The notes below the pieces were generated by a model. That model was not told the origin of the DNA and searched no databases. It worked only from the letters and a program-made list of their open reading frames with translations. This document shows positions 317 to 24,985 of a DNA stretch of 64,000 nt, piece after piece. This stretch comes from Spirochaetales bacterium. Lineage in GTDB: Bacteria; Spirochaetota; Spirochaetia; Sphaerochaetales; Sphaerochaetaceae. Position 1 is the first letter of the stretch, and every line of letters begins with the position of its first letter. The stretch covers positions 1-64,000 of the forward strand of contig JAQYHB010000022.1 in NCBI GenBank assembly GCA_028722305.1, written 5' to 3'. The translations under genes were made by a program, and so were the position numbers.

Positions 317-414
317 ATACCGTATCTCTTGGCATACTGACAAGTTATCAGAGAGTCGGTGATGGTGGTGGCATCAGTTTTGGCATCAATTACCATCACT
401 GGCCCTTGTGCCAG
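297..414. repeat. attL, 118-bp direct repeat (left copy)
   Basis: This copy is identical to 24713-24830. The first 20 bp are the tRNA-Pro 3' end and the rest is the non-coding leader in front of the integrase. Similarity continues past 414 with one indel and one substitution to about 436, which is inside the integrase coding start. The copy also holds an inverted repeat GTGATGGT (359-366) / ACCATCAC (392-399). Confidence 0.92.
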
Positions 415-422
415 GAGAAACC

Positions 423-1532
423 ATGAGGCATCACGATCCGTTCACTATCATCAAGCGTGGGAAGGTCTATTACTACTATTGCTATGATTCTTATGGGGTG
501 CGGAGGCGGTTCTCTACCGGACAGACCAATCGTATCAAAGCTATCAAGATCTGTATGCAACTGGCAGACTCGGACAAGCTCATGCAAGAGTCAGCCAAGG
601 CATCGTCCTTGACGTTTGCCGATTATGCTAAAGGCTGGTGGACAACGGAATGTCGGTATGTGCGCGAGCAGTCACTGCTTGGCAGAAACCTCACATCGGG
701 CTACTGCCGCCGGTGCCGGTTCGTCCTGGACAAGTGGCTGCTCCCCTACTGGGGCAGGCGCTACCTGCACACCATCACATCCATACAGGTCGAGACATGG
801 CTCATCTGGCTCTCCGGGACAAAGGAGATGGCACCGAAGTCGGCGAACAATCTCAAGGGGATCCTGTCGGTGATGCTCGGCCAGGCGCAGCACGAAGGCC
901 TGATCACCAGTAATCCCTGCGCCGCGTCCCGCAACCTGTCAGGCAAGGTGAAAGAACGCGGAATCCTCACCATTGAGGAGGCGCGACAGTTGTTCTCGTC
1001 CCTGGACTACTGGAGAGGAAACCGGATTGCCATGGCTGCGAATCTCCTGGCGGCATGCACCGGGATGCGCAACCGTGAGGTCGCTGCACTCCAGCCGGAG
1101 GACCTGAGGGATGGATGGATCCATGTGCATAGCCAGTACGACAAGTTCGGGCTCCGGCCCACGAAGACGAAGGACGAGAGGAACCTTCCCCTTCCCCTCG
1201 AGGTCATGAACATCCTGCGCCAGCTGGCAGCTGTCGGTGGCGGCAAGTGGATCTTCACATATGACGGAGTGTTGCCAGCGACGCAGACATCATTCGTCCG
1301 CAACCTCCATTGGGCCTGCGAGCGGATCGGGGTCGACTGGAAGGAGCGCAACATCTGCTTCCACAGCTGGAGGCACTTCCTGAACTCGCTCCTGATCAAC
1401 AACAATATCTCGACGGAGATGACGCAGCACATGACCGGCCACACGACCATGGCGATGACTGAGAACTATCTGCACTTCGACCCGTCCAAGTACTCGCCGA
1501 TCGTTGAGCTGACCAGGAAGATTGTGGAGTGA
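423..1532 (+). CDS. int: Phage tyrosine recombinase (integrase)
   Basis: This is a site-specific recombinase of the phage integrase family, expected to catalyse insertion and excision at tRNA-Pro. The 369-aa protein has an N-terminal arm-binding/SAM-like part and a C-terminal catalytic domain. Visible catalytic residues are Arg in CTGMRNRE (about residue 216), Lys in KTKDERN, His-x-x-Arg in HSWRH (314-317), His in GHTT (340) and nucleophile Tyr in TENYLHF (349). I chose ATG 423 because AGGAGA at 413-418 lies 4-5 nt upstream; an in-frame GTG at 408 has no ribosome site. It starts right after attL, the usual position. No other recombinase is visible in the window, so it is also the only local candidate for driving the fibre inversions at 6053-7472. 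Confidence 0.93.
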   Translation: MRHHDPFTIIKRGKVYYYYCYDSYGVRRRFSTGQTNRIKAIKICMQLADSDKLMQESAKASSLTFADYAKGWWTTECRYVREQSLLGRNLTSGYCRRCRFVLDKWLLPYWGRRYLHTITSIQVETWLIWLSGTKEMAPKSANNLKGILSVMLGQAQHEGLITSNPCAASRNLSGKVKERGILTIEEARQLFSSLDYWRGNRIAMAANLLAACTGMRNREVAALQPEDLRDGWIHVHSQYDKFGLRPTKTKDERNLPLPLEVMNILRQLAAVGGGKWIFTYDGVLPATQTSFVRNLHWACERIGVDWKERNICFHSWRHFLNSLLINNNISTEMTQHMTGHTTMAMTENYLHFDPSKYSPIVELTRKIVE

Positions 1533-4672: not shown

Positions 4673-4942
4673 ATGTACAAGGTGTTCTGGAAGAGGAAGG
4701 TAGACAAAGAAATCCTCAAGATGCCAAAAGCAGAACAAAAGCTTTTCATTATGCTTGTGGATGAAATCCGGGAATCCGGCCCGATTCGGACGGACTGGAG
4801 GAACTTCAGCAAGCTCACGAACACCAAGGACACCTATCATTGCCATCTTTCCTATCACTGGATAGCGGTATGGCGGTGGAACGGGATCTCTTTCGAAGTG
4901 GAGGTAACATATGCAGGTAGTAGAGAGAAATCACCATATTGA
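4673..4942 (+). CDS. higB: RelE/HigB-type toxin
   Basis: The 89-aa product has the size and pattern of the RelE/ParE superfamily of mRNA-cleaving or gyrase toxins: a basic N-terminus (MYKVFWKRKVDKEILKMP), a helical pair, then a beta segment with a DTYHCHLSYHWIAVWRW core resembling the phage-derived Gp49/HigB group. It precedes its antitoxin, the reverse of most TA operons but the rule in HigBA, and overlaps it by 32 nt. The -10 element is 6 nt from the start codon, and no ribosome site fits. It may stabilise the prophage or act as anti-phage cargo. Confidence 0.8.
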   Translation: MYKVFWKRKVDKEILKMPKAEQKLFIMLVDEIRESGPIRTDWRNFSKLTNTKDTYHCHLSYHWIAVWRWNGISFEVEVTYAGSREKSPY

Positions 4943-5270
4943 CATCACGGTGACCTCGGGAGCCGAGGTGCTCCTTCCGTATCTCCGCAAGCAGTGGCCG
5001 GATCTGAAGGTCGTTGACGATGACGAACTCATCGAGGCCACCGAATCCGAAGTCTACAGGCAGATCAAAGCAAAGATGACGAACACCCCGGACGAGAAGC
5101 TGCATCTCAACAGGCTCCGCACCGGCATGACCCAGGCACAGCTCGCACAGAAATGCGGAATCCGCAGGGAGAACATCAGCCTGATGGAGAGGGGCAAGCG
5201 CCCGATCGGGCTTGCCGCGGCCAAGAAGCTGGCATCGGCATTGGGAATGGACTATAAAGAGCTTGTCTGA
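4911..5270 (+). CDS. higA: XRE-family antitoxin
   Basis: The 119-aa product has an N-terminal extension of about 60 residues followed by a Cro/CI-type helix-turn-helix (LRTGMTQAQLAQKCGIRRENISLMERGKRPIG, then LAAAKKLASALGMDYKEL). It is expected to neutralise the upstream toxin and repress the shared promoter. GGAGG 6-8 nt before ATG 4911 lies inside the toxin gene, so the antitoxin has its own ribosome site while the toxin has none, which would favour antitoxin excess. A decayed copy of the last 37 bp of a similar gene is found at 24949-24985, outside the prophage. Confidence 0.8.
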   Translation: MQVVERNHHIDITVTSGAEVLLPYLRKQWPDLKVVDDDELIEATESEVYRQIKAKMTNTPDEKLHLNRLRTGMTQAQLAQKCGIRRENISLMERGKRPIGLAAAKKLASALGMDYKELV

Positions 5271-5322: not shown

Positions 5323-5799
5323 TTATTCCGACATTTCTGGCCACTCCACATCATCCGGGAATCCCGCTTGCTCTGGCACCTGCCTAAGCGCCTCTAGGTA
5401 CGCGAGTACTGCCTTGTACTGTGTCTCGGAGTCGGTCGGCGTGATGCCGAGGGCGAGCTGTGTCTGGTAGCGCTCGACGCGCCACATGATGTCGTCGATG
5501 AGTCCGTCCCGCTTTGCGCGTATTTCCTCTGCCTTCTGCTCGCTTGTGAGGCTTGCCCAGCGCTCCTCCTCGGTCGGGATGCGCGGAGTCTCTGGGACCG
5601 GGTCGGCGATGGTCTCCCATGCAGTTCCGGTCCAGTGGAGATGGTAGCCTTCTGGGCACTCCTGAGGCGCTACCTCGGTCATGTTGTCGTTGAGGCCGTC
5701 CCAGGTGCAGTGTCCAGCGTGGTCATAGATGCGGTTGGGGATGCTTTGGCTCCACAGATAGTTGCCGGTGTTCTTGTCATAAACATATACTGTTCTCAT
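5323..5799 (-). CDS. tfa: Tail fibre assembly protein (Tfa-like)
   Basis: The 158-aa product starts MRTVYVYDKNTGNYLWSQ, continues with the GYHLHWTGTAWE motif, and has a helical C-terminal half (KAEEIRAKRDGLIDDIMWRVERYQTQLALG followed by a D/E-rich end). This is the arrangement of phage Tfa / DUF4376-type chaperones, which help trimerise and attach fibre tips. It lies just beyond the invertible fibre cassettes, as tfa genes do next to the invertible fibres of Mu-like phages. A chaperone able to serve several tips would be needed by the switching system. Confidence 0.8.
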   Translation of the reverse strand: MRTVYVYDKNTGNYLWSQSIPNRIYDHAGHCTWDGLNDNMTEVAPQECPEGYHLHWTGTAWETIADPVPETPRIPTEEERWASLTSEQKAEEIRAKRDGLIDDIMWRVERYQTQLALGITPTDSETQYKAVLAYLEALRQVPEQAGFPDDVEWPEMSE

Positions 5800-6052
5800 G
5801 TCTTGATATTACCACGAATTGCTGGCTGAGTCAGCGAATGGCGAACTCTGATAAATCGCCATTTTTACAAGCAACAAGGTTAAATAAATGCAATTATGTG
5901 ATGTAAGACAATATAACATAATACTGCTTGTTGTATTTACAACATGAAAACGAAAGATTCCAGTACCAAAATCAGTCAAAAGCAAAAATTTTGAGTGGTT
6001 TATGCAAATAAATGGCGATTCATCTGATCATCATGAGCCTATACTGGCTGGG
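5800..6052. other. AT-rich non-coding segment beside the fibre cassettes
   Basis: No gene is seen. The octamer AATGGCGA occurs at 5837-5844 and 6011-6018, with an inverted copy TCGCCATT at 5856-5863; the first and the inverted copy form a stem followed by TTTTT. An 11-bp palindrome GCTGAGTCAGC lies at 5825-5835, and CAACAAG/CTTGTTG repeats lie in the centre. The segment may hold a tfa promoter or sites for a recombination enhancer. Confidence 0.4.
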
Positions 6053-6065
6053 TAAATAGGGATTT
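6053..6065 (+). repeat. Putative inversion site 1
   Basis: TAAATAGGGATTT in plus orientation opens cassette C. The codons read gta-aat-agg-gat-ttg (V-N-R-D-L). It is identical to the sites at 6364 and 7460. Confidence 0.75.
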
Positions 6066-6366
6066 GACAAACGCAACACTTGAGGCGGATGGCGGATGGA
6101 TCGATGTAGCGAACTCGAATAAAACGTATACTCCAACGAAGTGCGGATTGCTAGCAGTCTACGGCTCGGCGGCAGGTAGATCTTCTGCTATCAAAATCGT
6201 AGTAAACGGTACAATAATGACTTTCGCAAACAATCTTGGCAATGCTGGTTTGTACATGTATGTCAATTCTTTTGTCCCAGCTGGAGCAGTTGCATCATGG
6301 CGCTTCGATGGGGATGGTATCAACAACGCATCCGTTCTATTTCTGCCGTTGAGTGTCAAGATTTAA
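6053..6366 (+). CDS. Silent fibre-tip cassette C (promoterless 3' gene end)
   Basis: The reading frame is open through the repeat and encodes about 104 residues (NRDLTNATLEADGGWIDVAN and onward, ending VLFLPLSVKI). It has no ribosome site; the only starts are TTG or none. The product is a receptor-binding-type tip domain and is related to cassette D: both share Y-T-x-x-x-C-G, an SF-P-A segment and an LPL-K-I ending. Its frame at the repeat matches that of the fibre gene exactly, so inversion between this site and the one at 7460 would give an uninterrupted fibre with this end. Its stop TAA (6364-6366) overlaps the next repeat. Confidence 0.75.
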
Positions 6367-6376
6367 ATAGGGATTT
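6364..6376 (+). repeat. Putative inversion site 2
   Basis: TAAATAGGGATTT in plus orientation opens cassette D. Codons tta-aat-agg-gat-ttc (L-N-R-D-F). Confidence 0.75.
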
Positions 6377-6704
6377 CTTTAATCTTTCAATCGAAGTAGA
6401 TGGGAATTGGGTCTCCATCCCTGAAGTCGATGATAGTCAAGGAATACGCAGTTATACCACGGAAGAATGTGGATTCCTTTATTTCCAGGCATCGATGACG
6501 GGATATAGCTTCATCGATATCGAGATAAATGATGTACAAGTTGCTTGGGACTATTGTCGCTCAGTGTTTGGCAAAGGATCTTTTGATAGTCGTATAGCTT
6601 CTTTTATTCCCGCAAAGACTAAAGTGACCGCCAGATGGGGTGGACAGAATGTTTTCAATAGGATTGTTAGATTTCTTCCCCTAAAAATAAAAGTACAAAA
6701 ATGA
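6364..6704 (+). CDS. Silent fibre-tip cassette D (promoterless 3' gene end)
   Basis: An open frame from the repeat encodes about 113 residues (NRDFFNLSIEVDGNWVSIP and onward, ending FLPLKIKVQK). The sequence is a diverged relative of cassette C, with the same order of YTTEECG, a beta-rich centre, SFIPAKTKVTARW and the LPLKIK end. It lacks a start and ribosome site. An apparent ATG upstream (6297) lies inside cassette C in another frame and is not a credible start. It would be expressed only after inversion joins it to the fibre gene. Confidence 0.75.
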
Positions 6705-6724
6705 TCTCAAAAGACCATCAAGGT

Positions 6725-7173
6725 CTAATATGTACCGAAACATATTCCGCTCATGTTAATCGATGTCGAGAAAATGGATGTCGGCCATCCGCCGACTAGT
6801 GTAGACGGGTAATTCTGATAGACTCTTGCGAACTGCCAGTTGCCGTTAAGCGTCAACATCGTTCCGCCGTTACCATTCAGCTCGCCTGCAAGATTCGTTT
6901 TCCCCGAACCTTTGTATGAGTAGATGCATGTGCCTCCTGCAATTGGAGTGATTACTGGGATGGCCGAGTTTAGTCCTGACAGCTTCGCTGGACGGATGCC
7001 AAAAGTAAAATCGGACGTGCTGCTGCTCGTGACATCCTGCACATTGATTGCGAAACTCACAAGGGCAAGCCCATGCACTAGGAATACCGTAGCTCTGCCA
7101 TACGCATGTATGGTGTTGCCATCGTTCTCCGCTAGCAAGCCATCAACAAAGAACACAGAAAAATCCCTATAAA
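6725..7173 (-). CDS. Silent fibre-tip cassette B (3' gene end)
   Basis: Following the stop codon of the fibre gene on the same strand, the frame att-tat-agg-gat-ttt opens about 149 residues (YRDFSVFFVDGLLAENDG and onward, ending MSGICFGTY). The domain contains the Gly-rich, Asn-rich beta pattern of fibre tips (GELNGNGGTMLTLNGNWQFARVY). An ATG at 7201 lies inside the fibre gene in another frame and is not convincing. Because the repeat has the same orientation as the one in the fibre gene, direct recombination would delete the current tip rather than invert; two inversions could also bring it into use. Confidence 0.7.
7161..7173 (-). repeat. Putative inversion site 3 (variant)
   Basis: On the minus strand TTTATAGGGATTT, two mismatches from the other three copies but with the same codon phase (I-Y-R-D-F). 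It opens cassette B. Confidence 0.65.
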
Positions 7174-7179
7174 TGCTAG

Positions 7180-10100
7180 TCAGTATCCAATTGCAATCCA
7201 CACAACTTTCTCATCGTCGAAGCCCTTATAGTAGGTGAATCCTGTAACAGAGAAACTTTTCATTTTTGGTATCCATCCGCCAGACTTGTTCACGCCGTAC
7301 GTATTTGCAACTGGAATGCCATAAGTGCGGAAAGGAATTGGATATGTAACTCGCGCCGTTTGGCTGTTGTAGAATCCATAACCGAAATTGACAATGAGAC
7401 CGCTACGCAATTTGATTCCTGTCCCATAAGTGTTTGTTACAATTGTCCCGATATCGTCCAAATCCCTATTTATCTGGTTTATCGCTCCCACAATCGAGCC
7501 GCCGGAATTGAGCACCTGATTGTCCGAATCGGATACGGGAACATTGTTGATGTTCTGCGTCCAAGTGTTGGCAAAGGGCTTGGTATCGGTGCCAATCTGG
7601 CTAATACCTGTGCTCGCGTTCAAGTTTAGAGCTGTAATGCCTTTCAATTCGTAAACTGGATGGTATTCCAGTTGCGGAACGCCTTTGATGTATTCATTGG
7701 CGTTGTACCCATAATTTCCTTCTGTAGTCTTTACCGTAAAATCTATCGACGAAATAAGTACCGTTTTAAGTCCTGTTAACGAGACTGTTCCGTCATTGTA
7801 ATAGGAGTTGTACTTAGCATCGACTGATGCCGATCTGTATAACTCGAGCAATTCCAAGAAATCTTTGCATAATGTGTGCGTCGCAGAAGAAGAATGAGAC
7901 CCAATCACAAGTTGATTCTCTGTTGCTAGGTACCATTTCCCTAGAGGTATCTTTGCACCGACAGAATAATCGAAATTCAGAAGATACAGATAACCTTCCT
8001 CATGCACTGCCATTCCCGTGACAATGAATGTGTCCTGAGGCATCTCAAGAGCATATTTTTGATTGTCTGAACCTGCAACCACATATTTGTAGTATTGACT
8101 ACTATAAGTACAAGTTATCACTGCACCAGCCGGAACGTCAGTCAATGTGCGAGAGAATGTGTTGTCACCATAGATGTCTCCACTACTTTTTAATACTGTT
8201 ACAGTATTTCCTATTCTACACTTGAGTTCTTTTACGATTCTAATTGTCTGCTCATACGATCCGTCAGACTTTAATCTTTTGTAAGCATAAAACTGTTCAC
8301 ATATTATCGAGACAGAATCACAATGATTGTCGATTGTTACCGTGTATGTTATATCGGGTATCGGTATGTTTTGCCCGTAAACATTTTGACCTTGCGGAGA
8401 ATATGGGTTTGTGTAGTTCAATAATTGAACGTTGTGTGTTTTTGTGCTTCTGCAATATCTTTGATACGTTTTCCCTTTGAACATGCAGTTCGTTGAATTC
8501 TCTGTATTCTCAGCGACATTTGATGTATCAAGATAACTATTTATATTATAATATTTTAGCAATCCATTTGCAGATATTGATACAACATTTTCGTTATCGC
8601 CGCTTACAGTCTTGAATATGGAAGTATCGCCGTCGGTTATCTCCATGCTACCATCTTCAATACTGATTCCTCTGTACATACCTCCAACCGCCTTCATGCT
8701 TGCGGCCTTGATGACGTTGTTCGGCCCGTCGAGCTTGTAGCCCGTCACCGGGTTGCCGCTTGAGTCCTCCGAGTAGTTGGCGCTCTGGATGACTTGCGAC
8801 CGCAGACTCTCGATGAACCCGGTCTTGGCGGCAATCGCACCGAAGTATGCGTTGACGGCCACGCACGCGGACTGTACCCCGGAGCCTTGGGCGAGGATGT
8901 CTGATAGCACGGTGCCCATGATTAGCGCCGTGTTGGGATTTCCCGTCTGCATTGCGCTGTATGCGATGGTGCCGTTGCTTGCCACGGACGCAATCATCGG
9001 GGTATTCGTGCTGGTGTCGAGATAGTAGTCGCCAGACCAAATCGGGTCGTTATCCGGGGTGTAGGCGTTCGTCGTGTCCCAGTTTGTGCCAAGATAGACA
9101 GGCACATTGGCGTCTCCCGGCTCGGCCTTGACGTCGACGGAGAAAGTCTTCGTCAGCCCAATCCCGGTCACGGCGCATGAGATGCGGAACGGAAGCAGAG
9201 CCACGCGAGCTGCCACGCTGATGGTGCAGGTGGTCTTGTCAGATGACGGCGTGAGCGTGACCTGCGAAGACGTGGAGCTCCAAGTAATCGCAACCGCGCT
9301 CACTGCTACATGTATGAGCGTGCAGGTCGCCACGATGGTCTGTGCCGTCCTCGTGTATCCTCGCGGACTGACTGAGAACGCCTTGGCGGACAAGTCGACG
9401 TCGAAGTCCTTGATGCTGGCGCTGTCTCCCGTGTCTCCGTAGATGGCAATCAGCTCTACGCTGGTGTCTTGCGTCGAGTCGGTGTATGTGATGACGGTCT
9501 TGCGCCAGAGATATTTGGCGCTCTTGCTCATCGCCGGGATGGTAGTGCTGGTGATGGAGCTGGCGGCTGGCTGGCTTTGCGTTGTGGTAGTCGCATACCG
9601 GTAGGCGATTGAGGAGATGCCACGTCCCGAAGCCCCGGCCTTCCCATCGGAACCCTGACGTGCGATTCCGTAGGCGACCTTGCCGTCGCTGAACGTGGTC
9701 TTCGTCCAGAGGAACTGCCCTTGAGCCACGCTGACAGGATTATTCGACCACGTGCCCGTCGGCGCCGTCGTGGCGCTCGTGCCCGCTTGATACTGGATTG
9801 AGCTGATGGTCACGCTGGTACCCGCCGAGCCTGACTTGCCCTGTTTGGCGTAGGTGTAGGTCACCGTGTCGGCGACAGCATCGTTCGTGTAGTCAGTGAT
9901 GGTGCGGGTCCATAGGAACTGGTTCTCCGCCACTGCCGGGATTGTGCTGCTCCAGCTGGTCGGCTGGGTGGACGCGGACGAACTCACGCCGTAGGTGACT
10001 GTCACGCTCTTGATGCCGTTGCCGGTCGCTCCCGTAGCACCCGGATTGCCCTTAATGCTCTGTCCAATCATGGCAATGGTTGTGGTCGGGGACCCGGACG

Positions 10101-13100
10101 TGTACGTGACGACCGTCTTATTCCACAGATAGGGCTTCGCTTCCGTCGGGGTCTGTGCTGACGTGCTCCAGCCCGTATCAGACGCGGACGGAGCTGTTGG
10201 GGATGCGGAGGCAAGATAGTACTCCGTGATGCTAGAGATGCCACGACCGGTGGCGCCCGTTCCTCCAGTATCCCCCTTGTCGCCATATACACCGATTACG
10301 ACTGGCGTAGTGTATCCCGAGGCCGTCCCATTGGAGTACTGTGTCTTTGACCGGTTCCACAGATATCTGTTCGTCGGCGTCAGCGTAGGTACCGCCGTTC
10401 CCCACGTCCCAGTAACGGACGTGCTCGACGTGGATAGGGCGTACTCCTCTACGATGCCGGTGACAGAAGTTCCAGTAGCACCAGCCTCGCCCTTCTCTCC
10501 TTGCGGTCCGGTGGCGCCAGTCTCTCCCTTGATTTTCGTCCAGTGATATGATGCCGGACTGGAACTGTCTGCTTGCACGAAGTCCGTATACTGTCCGATA
10601 TAGAGCTTGCCAGCGCTTTCTGCGTCGTTTGTTGTGAATCCGGTACTTCCATCAGCGGAGTTGGCGTAGGCGATGTGCAGATAGCTTGTCTCCCCATTCG
10701 CCCCGTTTGTGCCCGGAATGCCTTGCTCGCCCTGCACGCCCTTGAATCTCGCCCATGTATATTTGGACGGGTCTGTGGAATCAGCTTCCGTATAGTCAAC
10801 GTATGTGCCGATATAATCCGATGGGGTCTCTGTCATCTGTGATGCGGCAGGAGATTGCACAGGGGCATACTTGATATGGAAGTACGACGTCTTGCCGTTC
10901 GTGCCATCCTTTCCCGGGATTCCCTGTTCGCCTTGCGGGCCTTGGATACCCTGAATGCCTTGAATCCCTTGTTCGCCTTGTGGCCCCTGCTCTCCGTCCT
11001 TGGCCATGATGGAGGGGGTGCTCCATTCGGATGGCTGGATGGTGTCCTCGTGCACGTTGCTCGAGCCGGTGACCGACGCAACCGCCGTGATTACCCACAG
11101 CGGGTTTCCGTCGCTTGCGGGCACGGTGTTGCTCCAAGAGCCGGTATTCGAGACCTGTCCGCTCAGAAAGTTATAGGTGACCACCCCGGTCGGCTTGGAC
11201 GGAGTTGACGCGCTCCGCTGGTAGAGCATGACGGTGGCGACGGTATCGCCGTTCTCGCCTCGCGTCCCGTTCTCGCTCAAGATTGCAGGCACAGTCCAGT
11301 CGCTGGGCTCCACGATGTCATTCTCGCCTTGTCCGAAGGCGGGCGCGTAGATGACGTACAGGGGGTCAGAACCCGAAGGAATCGTGATTGACCATGAGCC
11401 CTTGTTCCCGGCAAGTGTTGCCGTGGAAAACGTATATGTGAGAGCGGAACCGTCGTACTTGGCAGGCGCAGTTGCAGAGCGCTTGAACAGCTGGCACGTC
11501 GCGTTGCTCCAGCCGGACTGTCCGTCTGCCACTGCGACAATCGAGAATCCCGCCGACGTATAGGTGGTCGTGCCGATTGTGCATGAGACCGAAAAGACCG
11601 CATTGCCATCAACCAGGTCCGGGTCGGTGATGATGACAGACCTCTTGCCGATTGCTTTCGCTGAGGCGTTCCATGTCGCGTCCGCGACCGTATCGGTTGA
11701 GGTGCGTGTCCAGCGGAATACGGACTCGTTCGCAAGCGCGACATCGACGCCTGAGCGCATCAGCACGGCAGACAGCGTCGCATTCACCGATCCAGCCGGG
11801 AAGAGCGAACCGTCCCCGGTGAAGATTGCCAGCGTAGGTGCCGATAGAAGCTGGTCAATATCGTATGTCGCAGTGACTGTCTCGCCGTTGAGCGTCGCAG
11901 TACACGTGACCACGTTTCCGCTCAATGCAAGGTCTCTGACCGGGAACGTGACCGACGATCCGGTAGACGTCACGCTGGTACCGTTCAGATCCCACGCAGG
12001 CGTGAGACCGTAATAGTCGATTGCATCCCCCTCTGCCACCACTGTGACCACCCCGGTCGACTCGTCCAGATCGGCCGACAACTCCAGGAAGTCGCCGCCA
12101 TATACGGGATGGTCCTCGCTGGTCTCCGCCTTGGTTATGGCCTCCTTGAGGTCCAGGTCCCCTGCCCCTTCTGCTTTGTACTTGTAGATGCCGGTAAGCG
12201 GGTCCAGCGTCTGCTCGAGGATGCGCACTTTGGCGCTGATGCCGGTGACTGATGACTCTGACAACGTCACGATTGCCCCTGGCGCATATTCAGACAGGCT
12301 GCTGAATGTGTATGTCGTCGACGCCTTCCGCTTCATGGCCTCATAGTACATGGCATATTCGGTGGCTCCCTCGATGCCGTCGCTAGATGACAGCTGATGG
12401 TGATGGAGCAGCGTGAGAGACTCCTGTGTGGTACCTGGATTGCTGTACAGCTCCTTCGTCTTGTTGTACCTGATGACGATGTCTGCGGTGATCCGTGCCC
12501 TGATGTATCCTTTGGCGCAGGCTCCATGGCGCTCCATCACGATGTGGCAGCCTTCCAGGTCGTAGCTCGTAATCTTGGCTGACGCCCCGTCAATCCTCGG
12601 ATGCGTCACTCCCGTCTCCGTCCATGTGGAGCCGGGATTCAGGTTCTCGATAGACACGATTTCCCAGCCGTCAAGATTGGCCCCGTCGGGAAGCGACCAG
12701 GTGACATCCTGCCCGTACTCTACCGACCTGGAGTTGACGCTGTCCGATTTGTGATAGCCCTCCCCGATCTTCTCCCCGACGCGACGCTCGTACTTGCGCC
12801 ATGTGGCCTTGATGCTCTTCGGCTTGTACACGCTGCCGCTTCCTCTCAGGGAGTTGCGGAAGTCGGTGACGGTCGCCACCGGCTCCCCGTTGGAATCGGT
12901 GGAGATGATGCGGATGGAGTTGTCAGCGTCGAATATATAGTCGAGCCGAAATTCCGTTAGGAGCTGTTCTAGTTGTGTCTTCAGGTCGGGATTTTGTTCG
13001 AGCTGGAAGTAGTCGAGCCGGGTTGTACACGTGGCGTCGCATTTGACCGGAATCGTGATCCCAAGGAATCCAGCCGCAAGCTTCAGGATCTGGTGGACAA

Positions 13101-13536
13101 TGGAGGTGTCCTGTCTAGCGGGGTCGCAGACGGCATAGTTCTGCCATCTTTGCGGGCCTCTGACAAGCCTGGCATTCTCCGGCGCTACATCCTTCCCAAA
13201 CACTCCGATCTTGAGCTTGCCCGAGTAGTCCATGACCGTCAGGCTGACTGACTCGATCAGCCTGCCTTTCGCGTCGAAGTCCCAATCGGTATCGATCAGT
13301 CCGGTGAAGCGGATGGCGGTGCCCTCGTAAATCTCGGCCTTGGTCTGTTCCTTCCGTCCTACGAGTTTGAGTGACAGGCTGACAGTGGGCCCGGAAATGG
13401 AGACCGTCGCCTTCTGCTGTGCATGCGTACCGGCGGCACCGACACACCTGGGAATCGAGCATGACTTGAGCGGATATACAGCCGGATCGGCAGCATCGCC
13501 ATCGAAGAAAATCCTAATCGTCCACAAGTTGTCCAT
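7180..13536 (-). CDS. Giant tail tip/fibre protein with switchable C-terminus
   Basis: The 2118-aa protein is the tail-associated host-recognition protein. The first 500 residues look like the tail-tip/baseplate part (beta-rich, including a VSLTVMDYSGKLKIGVFG section). Immunoglobulin-like domains follow to about residue 700. From about 840 to 1320 collagen-like Gly-X-Y blocks (GPQGEQGIQGIQGIQGPQ) alternate with repeated modules of about 70-75 residues containing W-S-x-x-x-P and LW-x-KT motifs. The tail then has a Lys-Asn-Thr-rich shaft and ends in an IGY tip typical of siphovirus fibres. The last 97 residues begin at the 13-bp repeat. It starts 3 bp after the tape measure stop. Confidence 0.88.
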   Translation of the reverse strand: MDNLWTIRIFFDGDAADPAVYPLKSCSIPRCVGAAGTHAQQKATVSISGPTVSLSLKLVGRKEQTKAEIYEGTAIRFTGLIDTDWDFDAKGRLIESVSLTVMDYSGKLKIGVFGKDVAPENARLVRGPQRWQNYAVCDPARQDTSIVHQILKLAAGFLGITIPVKCDATCTTRLDYFQLEQNPDLKTQLEQLLTEFRLDYIFDADNSIRIISTDSNGEPVATVTDFRNSLRGSGSVYKPKSIKATWRKYERRVGEKIGEGYHKSDSVNSRSVEYGQDVTWSLPDGANLDGWEIVSIENLNPGSTWTETGVTHPRIDGASAKITSYDLEGCHIVMERHGACAKGYIRARITADIVIRYNKTKELYSNPGTTQESLTLLHHHQLSSSDGIEGATEYAMYYEAMKRKASTTYTFSSLSEYAPGAIVTLSESSVTGISAKVRILEQTLDPLTGIYKYKAEGAGDLDLKEAITKAETSEDHPVYGGDFLELSADLDESTGVVTVVAEGDAIDYYGLTPAWDLNGTSVTSTGSSVTFPVRDLALSGNVVTCTATLNGETVTATYDIDQLLSAPTLAIFTGDGSLFPAGSVNATLSAVLMRSGVDVALANESVFRWTRTSTDTVADATWNASAKAIGKRSVIITDPDLVDGNAVFSVSCTIGTTTYTSAGFSIVAVADGQSGWSNATCQLFKRSATAPAKYDGSALTYTFSTATLAGNKGSWSITIPSGSDPLYVIYAPAFGQGENDIVEPSDWTVPAILSENGTRGENGDTVATVMLYQRSASTPSKPTGVVTYNFLSGQVSNTGSWSNTVPASDGNPLWVITAVASVTGSSNVHEDTIQPSEWSTPSIMAKDGEQGPQGEQGIQGIQGIQGPQGEQGIPGKDGTNGKTSYFHIKYAPVQSPAASQMTETPSDYIGTYVDYTEADSTDPSKYTWARFKGVQGEQGIPGTNGANGETSYLHIAYANSADGSTGFTTNDAESAGKLYIGQYTDFVQADSSSPASYHWTKIKGETGATGPQGEKGEAGATGTSVTGIVEEYALSTSSTSVTGTWGTAVPTLTPTNRYLWNRSKTQYSNGTASGYTTPVVIGVYGDKGDTGGTGATGRGISSITEYYLASASPTAPSASDTGWSTSAQTPTEAKPYLWNKTVVTYTSGSPTTTIAMIGQSIKGNPGATGATGNGIKSVTVTYGVSSSASTQPTSWSSTIPAVAENQFLWTRTITDYTNDAVADTVTYTYAKQGKSGSAGTSVTISSIQYQAGTSATTAPTGTWSNNPVSVAQGQFLWTKTTFSDGKVAYGIARQGSDGKAGASGRGISSIAYRYATTTTQSQPAASSITSTTIPAMSKSAKYLWRKTVITYTDSTQDTSVELIAIYGDTGDSASIKDFDVDLSAKAFSVSPRGYTRTAQTIVATCTLIHVAVSAVAITWSSTSSQVTLTPSSDKTTCTISVAARVALLPFRISCAVTGIGLTKTFSVDVKAEPGDANVPVYLGTNWDTTNAYTPDNDPIWSGDYYLDTSTNTPMIASVASNGTIAYSAMQTGNPNTALIMGTVLSDILAQGSGVQSACVAVNAYFGAIAAKTGFIESLRSQVIQSANYSEDSSGNPVTGYKLDGPNNVIKAASMKAVGGMYRGISIEDGSMEITDGDTSIFKTVSGDNENVVSISANGLLKYYNINSYLDTSNVAENTENSTNCMFKGKTYQRYCRSTKTHNVQLLNYTNPYSPQGQNVYGQNIPIPDITYTVTIDNHCDSVSIICEQFYAYKRLKSDGSYEQTIRIVKELKCRIGNTVTVLKSSGDIYGDNTFSRTLTDVPAGAVITCTYSSQYYKYVVAGSDNQKYALEMPQDTFIVTGMAVHEEGYLYLLNFDYSVGAKIPLGKWYLATENQLVIGSHSSSATHTLCKDFLELLELYRSASVDAKYNSYYNDGTVSLTGLKTVLISSIDFTVKTTEGNYGYNANEYIKGVPQLEYHPVYELKGITALNLNASTGISQIGTDTKPFANTWTQNINNVPVSDSDNQVLNSGGSIVGAINQINRDLDDIGTIVTNTYGTGIKLRSGLIVNFGYGFYNSQTARVTYPIPFRTYGIPVANTYGVNKSGGWIPKMKSFSVTGFTYYKGFDDEKVVWIAIGY
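7460..7472 (-). repeat. Putative inversion site 4, inside the expressed fibre gene
   Basis: On the minus strand TAAATAGGGATTT, reading ata-aat-agg-gat-ttg (I-N-R-D-L) within the fibre gene. It separates the constant part (residues 1 to about 2021) from the variable tip (about 97 residues). Confidence 0.75.
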
Positions 13537-24142: not shown

Positions 24143-24249
24143 TCCTCCGAATCACCTGCCCCGAATGCCGAGAGGATGTCCTCGTCAGCATCTTTCGTCT
24201 TGTCCAGAAGATCAAGAAGCTGGCCGCACAGAACGGAATCCATCTCGAC

Positions 24250-24579
24250 ATGAGCCTCCTTAGGGTTCCAGAAGAGAAGTACTACAGGATCACTCTGAAG
24301 GATATCGTCCCTAGGAAAGAACCGGATCCAAGCAGCTTCTTCTACAAGACGCATGTCGTGTTCACAGGTAACCTCCCCATTCCGCGGATTATGGCGATGC
24401 AGGCTGTAGTGGACCAAGGTGGACTGGTAGGCAATACGGTGACCAAGCGGACCCGGTACCTTGTACGCGGGAAAAATTCCGGGGTCCTGAAGAACGACCA
24501 GGCAAACGAGGCCAAGGCCGCAGGGCAGGACATCACCATCCTATCGCCCGAAGATTTCATGACGAAGGTGTGCTTATAG
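24250..24579 (+). CDS. BRCT-domain protein (probably truncated)
   Basis: The last 80 residues form a BRCT domain: THVVFTGNLPIPRIMAMQAV, then VDQGGLVGNTVTKRTRYLVRG and the closing LSPEDFM. BRCT domains bind DNA ends or phosphopeptides and in phages are usually carried by exonuclease or ligase proteins. The upstream portion (RVPEEKYYRITLKDIV) has no ribosome site, the frame continues into terL antisense without a plausible start, and the gene opposes the late operon. I infer it is the surviving 3' end of an early-region gene left by a deletion. ATG 24250 is nominal. Confidence 0.6.
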   Translation: MSLLRVPEEKYYRITLKDIVPRKEPDPSSFFYKTHVVFTGNLPIPRIMAMQAVVDQGGLVGNTVTKRTRYLVRGKNSGVLKNDQANEAKAAGQDITILSPEDFMTKVCL

Positions 24580-24582
24580 CAT

Positions 24583-24617
24583 GTGGTGGCATCAGTTTTG
24601 GCATCAATTACCATCAC
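24583..24617. repeat. Third copy of a 35-bp att-flanking sequence
   Basis: Identical to 365-399 (attL) and 24781-24815 (attR). It begins 3 bp after the BRCT stop codon and 96 bp before attR. It is AT-rich to its right (24618-24712), where no gene is seen. It may be an integrase arm site or a scar of recombination. Confidence 0.7.
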
Positions 24618-24712: not shown

Positions 24713-24830
24713 TTCGATTCCGACCAGCCCGAATACCGTATCTCTTGGCATACTGACAAGTTATCAGAGAGTCGGTGATGGTGGTGGCATCAGTTTTGGC
24801 ATCAATTACCATCACTGGCCCTTGTGCCAG
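24713..24830. repeat. attR, 118-bp direct repeat (right copy)
   Basis: The first 20 bp are the displaced 3' end of tRNA-Pro, which marks the right end of the prophage. Similarity to the left end continues, with a 1-bp deletion, into an ATG that matches the integrase start. Confidence 0.92.
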
Positions 24831-24837
24831 AGAAGCC

Positions 24838-24985
24838 ATGAGGCATCACGAACCATCGTCATACCACACAGCAGGATGACATATCGCCTCAGCGACGGTG
24901 CTTACGAAATTCCAACAGGACAAACCAACCGCATCACGGCCATTTCACGGCAAAGAAGCTGGCATCAACCTTGGGACCTGACTCA
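24838..24985 (+). pseudogene. Scar of an older related element: integrase and HigA-like fragments
   Basis: ATG 24838 begins MRHHEP like the integrase. After a frame change, 24882-24941 encodes YRLSDGAYEIPTGQTNRITAI, which matches the integrase segment ending FSTGQTNRIKAI. It is joined directly to 24949-24985, which resembles the last codons of higA (AKKLASTLGPD against AKKLASALGMD). The DNA lies outside the present prophage, so it is left from an earlier insertion of a related element at the same tRNA. Confidence 0.7.

Follow-up and report, generated by a model that had tools for sequence, protein, structure and literature searches.

A possible DNA inversion switch for the host-gripping fibre tip in a prophage of a rumen spirochaete

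The fibre gene, its alternative tips and the shared repeat

The window, by which we mean the whole analysed stretch of 64,000 nucleotides, carries a prophage at a tRNA-Pro gene, where the att sequence is present as two identical 118-bp copies that start at 297 and 24713. On the minus strand of this prophage lies a tail-fibre gene of 2,118 aa (7180-13536), an open reading frame that matches phage tail fibre/host specificity families, contains collagen-like repeats, and is made up of a constant part (7473-13536) and an active tip, tip A. This tip (7180-7470, minus strand; 96 aa) opens with N-R-D-L and has a Gp53-like C-terminal domain (PF21882, E 1e-7). Three silent tips lie beyond it: tip B (6725-7171, minus strand; 148 aa), which opens with Y-R-D-F and is without a family match; tip C (6055-6366, plus strand; 103 aa), which opens with N-R-D-L and has a predicted C1q/TNF-like head in its structure model; and tip D (6366-6704, plus strand; 112 aa), which opens with N-R-D-F. 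The layout C> D> <B <A given in the initial annotation is right, with B on the fibre strand and C and D opposite. A tail-fibre assembly chaperone (5323-5799, minus strand; PF16778, PF02413, phrog_188) is encoded nearby.

All four frames are stop-free over their full lengths, and the chance of such an open frame by composition is 0.007 for A, 0.0015 for B, 0.0075 for C and 0.001 for D. The initial annotation also held that the silent ends have no start or ribosome site, which was overstated, since formal start codons exist at 6064 (TTG, tip C), 6297 (ATG, tip D) and 7201 (GTG, tip B); by their positions, none of them looks convincing, as the ATG has GGAG upstream but lies inside C, and the GTG overlaps the fibre end.

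Judged by sequence comparison, tips C and D are homologous (32% identity), while no similarity is detectable between tips B and C. The model of tip C is a beta sandwich (pLDDT 84, pTM 0.74), whose matches among solved structures, influenza haemagglutinin and C1q/TNF-like heads, are weak, with none at an E value below 0.001; comparison with viral models gave a match (E 1.4e-4; TM score over the query, 0.69) to a putative tail-fibre protein from Edwardsiella phage MSW-3. The tips behind this one junction are thus predicted to belong to different fold families, with A being Gp53-like and C and D C1q-like.

The four tips share a 13-bp repeat, TAAATAGGGATTT, and its positions are as first described: three exact copies, comprising site C (6053-6065, plus strand), site D (6364-6376, plus strand), which overlaps the stop codon of tip C, and site A (7460-7472, minus strand), which lies within the fibre reading frame, plus a near copy, site B (TTTATAGGGATTT, 7161-7173, minus strand), which has two mismatches and directly follows the fibre stop. 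Two copies therefore lie on each strand. The claim of a common codon phase also held, with a codon starting at the third base of the site in all four copies and each frame open from that base. Resemblance among the four sites ends at about 13 bp. The three exact copies are identical at wobble positions and at the two bases 5' of the first shared codon, and these two bases are untranslated in the silent copies.

Across all 2.7 Mb of the genome, the three window copies are the only exact matches to the 13-mer. In 2,000 dinucleotide shuffles of the 1.8-kb region, no 13-mer ever occurred three times, as one does here. Two one-mismatch copies, each single, are present on other contigs of the same genome, with nothing cassette-like in the 140 bases read around them. 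There are also two possible degenerate sites, X2 (AAATGGCGATTC, 6010-6027, plus strand) and X1 (AAATGGCGATTT, 5847-5864, minus strand), which face each other in inverted orientation across 145 AT-rich bases. Both, X1 over 5853-5864 and X2 over 6010-6021, fit the consensus AAATRGSGATTY, which was itself drawn from X1, X2 and the three exact sites. The frame from X2 opens with N-G-D-S and runs to the stop codon inside site C, and X1 doubles as half of a terminator-like hairpin; X1 and X2 are tentatively regarded as extra degenerate sites.

The proposed switch and related loci

The four sites delimit three segments, one with the single frame of A, one with the frames of D and B tail to tail, and one with the single frame of C. 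When the constant part of the fibre is joined in silico to each tip at the site, every product is open, with lengths of 2,118 (A), 2,170 (B), 2,125 (C) and 2,134 aa (D). In the proposed mechanism, a 13-bp crossover site within the fibre frame would mark the end of the constant part, and a site-specific recombinase would join inverted sites, so that a flip sets a silent tip in frame and silences the previous one. Inversion between sites C and A or between sites D and A would place C or D behind the fibre in one flip, while tip B would need two, because of the order of the sites. The neighbouring chaperone would help fold the chosen tip. Such inversion, if it takes place as we infer, would change host range, and the enzyme may be a tyrosine recombinase, whether the integrase of the prophage or another that acts in trans.

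The general layout of phage tail-fibre multiple inversion, namely a constant part, alternative ends, a shared repeat, one phase and both orientations, is found here in full. We therefore consider it quite probable that the locus is, or was, a site-specific inversion switch of a receptor-binding fibre tip, and it is best read as a well-formed inversion cassette, functional or recently so. Against a switch stand the shortness of a 13-bp site and the two mismatches in site B.

Viral contigs, genome contigs and named phages were searched for relatives of the integrase, the assembly gene, the fibre and its tips, and in these sets no second copy of the locus and no inverted form was found. The genome-contig search returned a single locus, at 5775-9013 of OMYY01000025.1 in RUG023, a same-genus genome from an uncultured rumen member of the Spirochaetaceae, whose prophage integrase is 53% identical to that of the window. 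This locus comprises a fibre gene, a single spare tip in inverted orientation and the same assembly gene as in the window, and a 16-bp inverted repeat, ATAACGGCGATTCTGG, stands at both tips in the same codon phase; it is the only inverted repeat of at least 12 bp, 150-2,500 bp apart, in 14 kb of RUG023. No local invertase was found at this two-tip locus.

Another such locus is present in the window's own genome, on contig C20 (5992-8257), where a fibre end is accompanied by two silent tips on the other strand, starting from sites at 6856 and 7599. The locus has four sites of the AACGGTTTGAT type, its segment encloses an assembly gene, and a serine invertase is encoded at 7571-8257, between the tips and a sigma-like gene; from these features it appears to be a multiple inversion system of the Min/Gin-like kind, sharing its host with the window locus. 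In the window, a RelE/YafQ-like toxin and an HTH antitoxin-like partner are found at 4673-5270 (plus strand), the place that the invertase has in the C20 prophage.

No cluster of the exact 13-mer was present among 295 other genomes. The same geometry recurs in RUG023 and on C20. Among the other prophages with homologues of the assembly gene (L116, L117 and L125-L128), there is no exact inverted repeat of at least 12 bp around the fibre end, and a wider scan gave some inverted repeats elsewhere in these loci, most at about chance level. In L116, L117 and L128 the fibre end passes straight into the assembly gene, and these are clearly without cassettes.

Candidate recombinases and comparison with known systems

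A single recombinase was found in the prophage, its tyrosine integrase (408-1532, plus strand; PF00589), which lies 4.5 kb from the cassettes and is a candidate for the switch enzyme. No dedicated recombinase beside the cassettes and no second one elsewhere in the prophage was found among the prophage proteins scanned. Elsewhere in the genome, tyrosine recombinases include XerC/XerD-like proteins on contig C55 and others on C30, C42 and C50, and serine recombinases (PF00239) are found only on C20 and C50. The C55 proteins were set aside as housekeeping-like, being encoded beside ftsZ and hslVU, and the C50 serine recombinase has no fibre gene nearby in the 15 kb read. With a completeness of about 95%, the assembled genome may lack an enzyme that acts in trans.

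Flanking the att sites are identical 35-bp repeats (365-399, 24583-24617 and 24781-24815), each with two TGGCATCA motifs, which are likely arm-type binding sites of the integrase; these putative arm repeats cluster at the att sites alone, with none near the cassettes. After the att duplication, at 24713-24960, there is a seemingly decayed start of a second integrase gene copy, such as a former tandem prophage at this tRNA might have left. Relatives of the integrase in other genomes (L112-L115) have no fibre locus nearby.

The sole near-identical record for this phage, IMGVR_UViG_3300026549_000279, ends short of the fibre region. Its attP is joined, in keeping with a free or excised phage, and the record carries about 10 kb of early genes that are absent from the window prophage (at 24205-24407). 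With these genes missing, the window prophage may be defective, and the window copy may be a deletion derivative. No second recombinase was recognised in the early region of the near-identical phage, where the open reading frames were read by eye. Both this gap of about 10 kb and the absent recombinase were missed in the initial annotation, whose description of a shufflon-like fibre switch is partly supported: the anatomy agrees with it very well and two further loci have the same geometry, but no inverted form was seen and no shufflon-type recombinase was found beside the cassettes or elsewhere in the prophage.

The R64 pilV shufflon acts on a pilus adhesin and has 19-bp sites with rci adjacent. 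Like it, the window locus combines a single constant N-terminal part with several silent ends, and one of its segments holds two opposed reading frames between inverted sites, but there is no Rci recombinase beside its segments. The Min system of p15B and the Gin and Cin systems of Mu and P1 likewise exchange tail-fibre C-terminal ends near an assembly gene, with several tips in Min (PMC6109161); these have an adjacent serine invertase and dyad sites of roughly 26 bp related to the Din consensus, whereas the window locus has neither, and the C20 locus fits them much better.

Another example has been described in Bifidobacterium prophages, where the Rin shufflon swaps receptor-binding tips at an 11-bp site, TTCCCTAACCC, and where an adjacent XerD-like tyrosine recombinase, separate from the integrase, is predicted to carry out the exchange (PMC6109161). 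A Rin-like system with an 8-bp site, ttccgtat, is found in Eggerthella lenta prophages (PMC8778435). As in Rin, the window locus has silent receptor-binding tips behind short asymmetric repeats in a temperate phage, while differing in its host phylum and in lacking an adjacent XerD-like recombinase; its site, read as AAATCCCTATTTA, has TCCCTA in common with the Bifidobacterium site, a likeness that is suggestive only. A second two-ended locus, in tRNA-Met Bifidobacterium prophages, has an 8-bp repeat and no recombinase beside it, for which the authors propose an enzyme acting in trans, and two prophages carry it in opposite orientations (PMC6109161). The window locus resembles this one in having a gene end at a very short repeat with no adjoining recombinase, but has four ends rather than two and is known in one order, as opposed to both orientations. 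Taken by its sequence features, the locus looks to work like the R64/Rci, Min or Rin systems, though its membership of any of them is not demonstrated.

We tentatively propose, with somewhat less than even confidence, that this is a recombinase-less fibre shufflon on a 13-bp site, which may be run by the integrase of the prophage or by a recombinase that the host or a different prophage provides, and that neighbouring prophages of the same genus carry parallel switches with different sites, one with a different enzyme class.

Alternative readings and biological meaning

A switch that once inverted may instead have become frozen, its recombinase having disappeared along with the early genes or given way to the toxin-antitoxin pair, leaving the order now fixed; we regard this as possible but rather unlikely, and it is a sub-case of the inversion-switch reading and not an alternative to it. 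The missing local recombinase and the gap of about 10 kb in the early genes agree with such a loss, as does the C20 invertase, which occupies the place of the window's toxin-antitoxin pair between the tips and the sigma-like gene. The silent tips nevertheless remain fully open, the early region of the near-identical phage, read by eye from its frames, shows no second recombinase, and RUG023 is likewise without a local invertase.

The locus could also be a fossil of horizontal tip acquisition, in which tips were captured by short homology at conserved N-R-D-L codons with no programmed switching. The repeat is indeed short and mostly coding, and an N-G-D-like codon motif is common to X1, X2 and the RUG023 sites. 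This reading is nonetheless improbable, as it does not sit well with three copies that are identical at wobble positions and in the bases before the first shared codon, with silent tips that are open on both strands, with site orientations that are those inversion requires, or with the same geometry at two related loci, one of which has an invertase. A diversity-generating retroelement was rejected, with no reverse transcriptase in the prophage proteins scanned, which did not include every small reading frame, and with no extended near-copy of the fibre end detected in the 4-9 kb interval. That the silent frames are separate small genes, as the formal starts at 6297 (with GGAG upstream), 7201 and 6064 might allow, or that a frameshift at the fibre stop links B to A, is very improbable, as the starts are badly placed, C and D lie on the other strand beyond the reach of frameshifting or readthrough, and the 13-bp junction in one codon phase is left unexplained.

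Under the preferred reading of an inversion switch, the phage could exchange its host-gripping part through flips of the DNA. No description of such a switch in spirochaete phages was found in the open-access literature, a weak negative as most subscription papers lie outside that scope. With four tips, a 13-bp site and no local recombinase, such a switch would add the phages of spirochaetes to those with tail switching, and it raises the question of whether a plain phage integrase or an enzyme acting in trans can run a shufflon. Gut and rumen phages need ways to track changing host surfaces, and the presence of three putative switch loci across two genomes from a single genus points to tip switching as a common trait of these phages.
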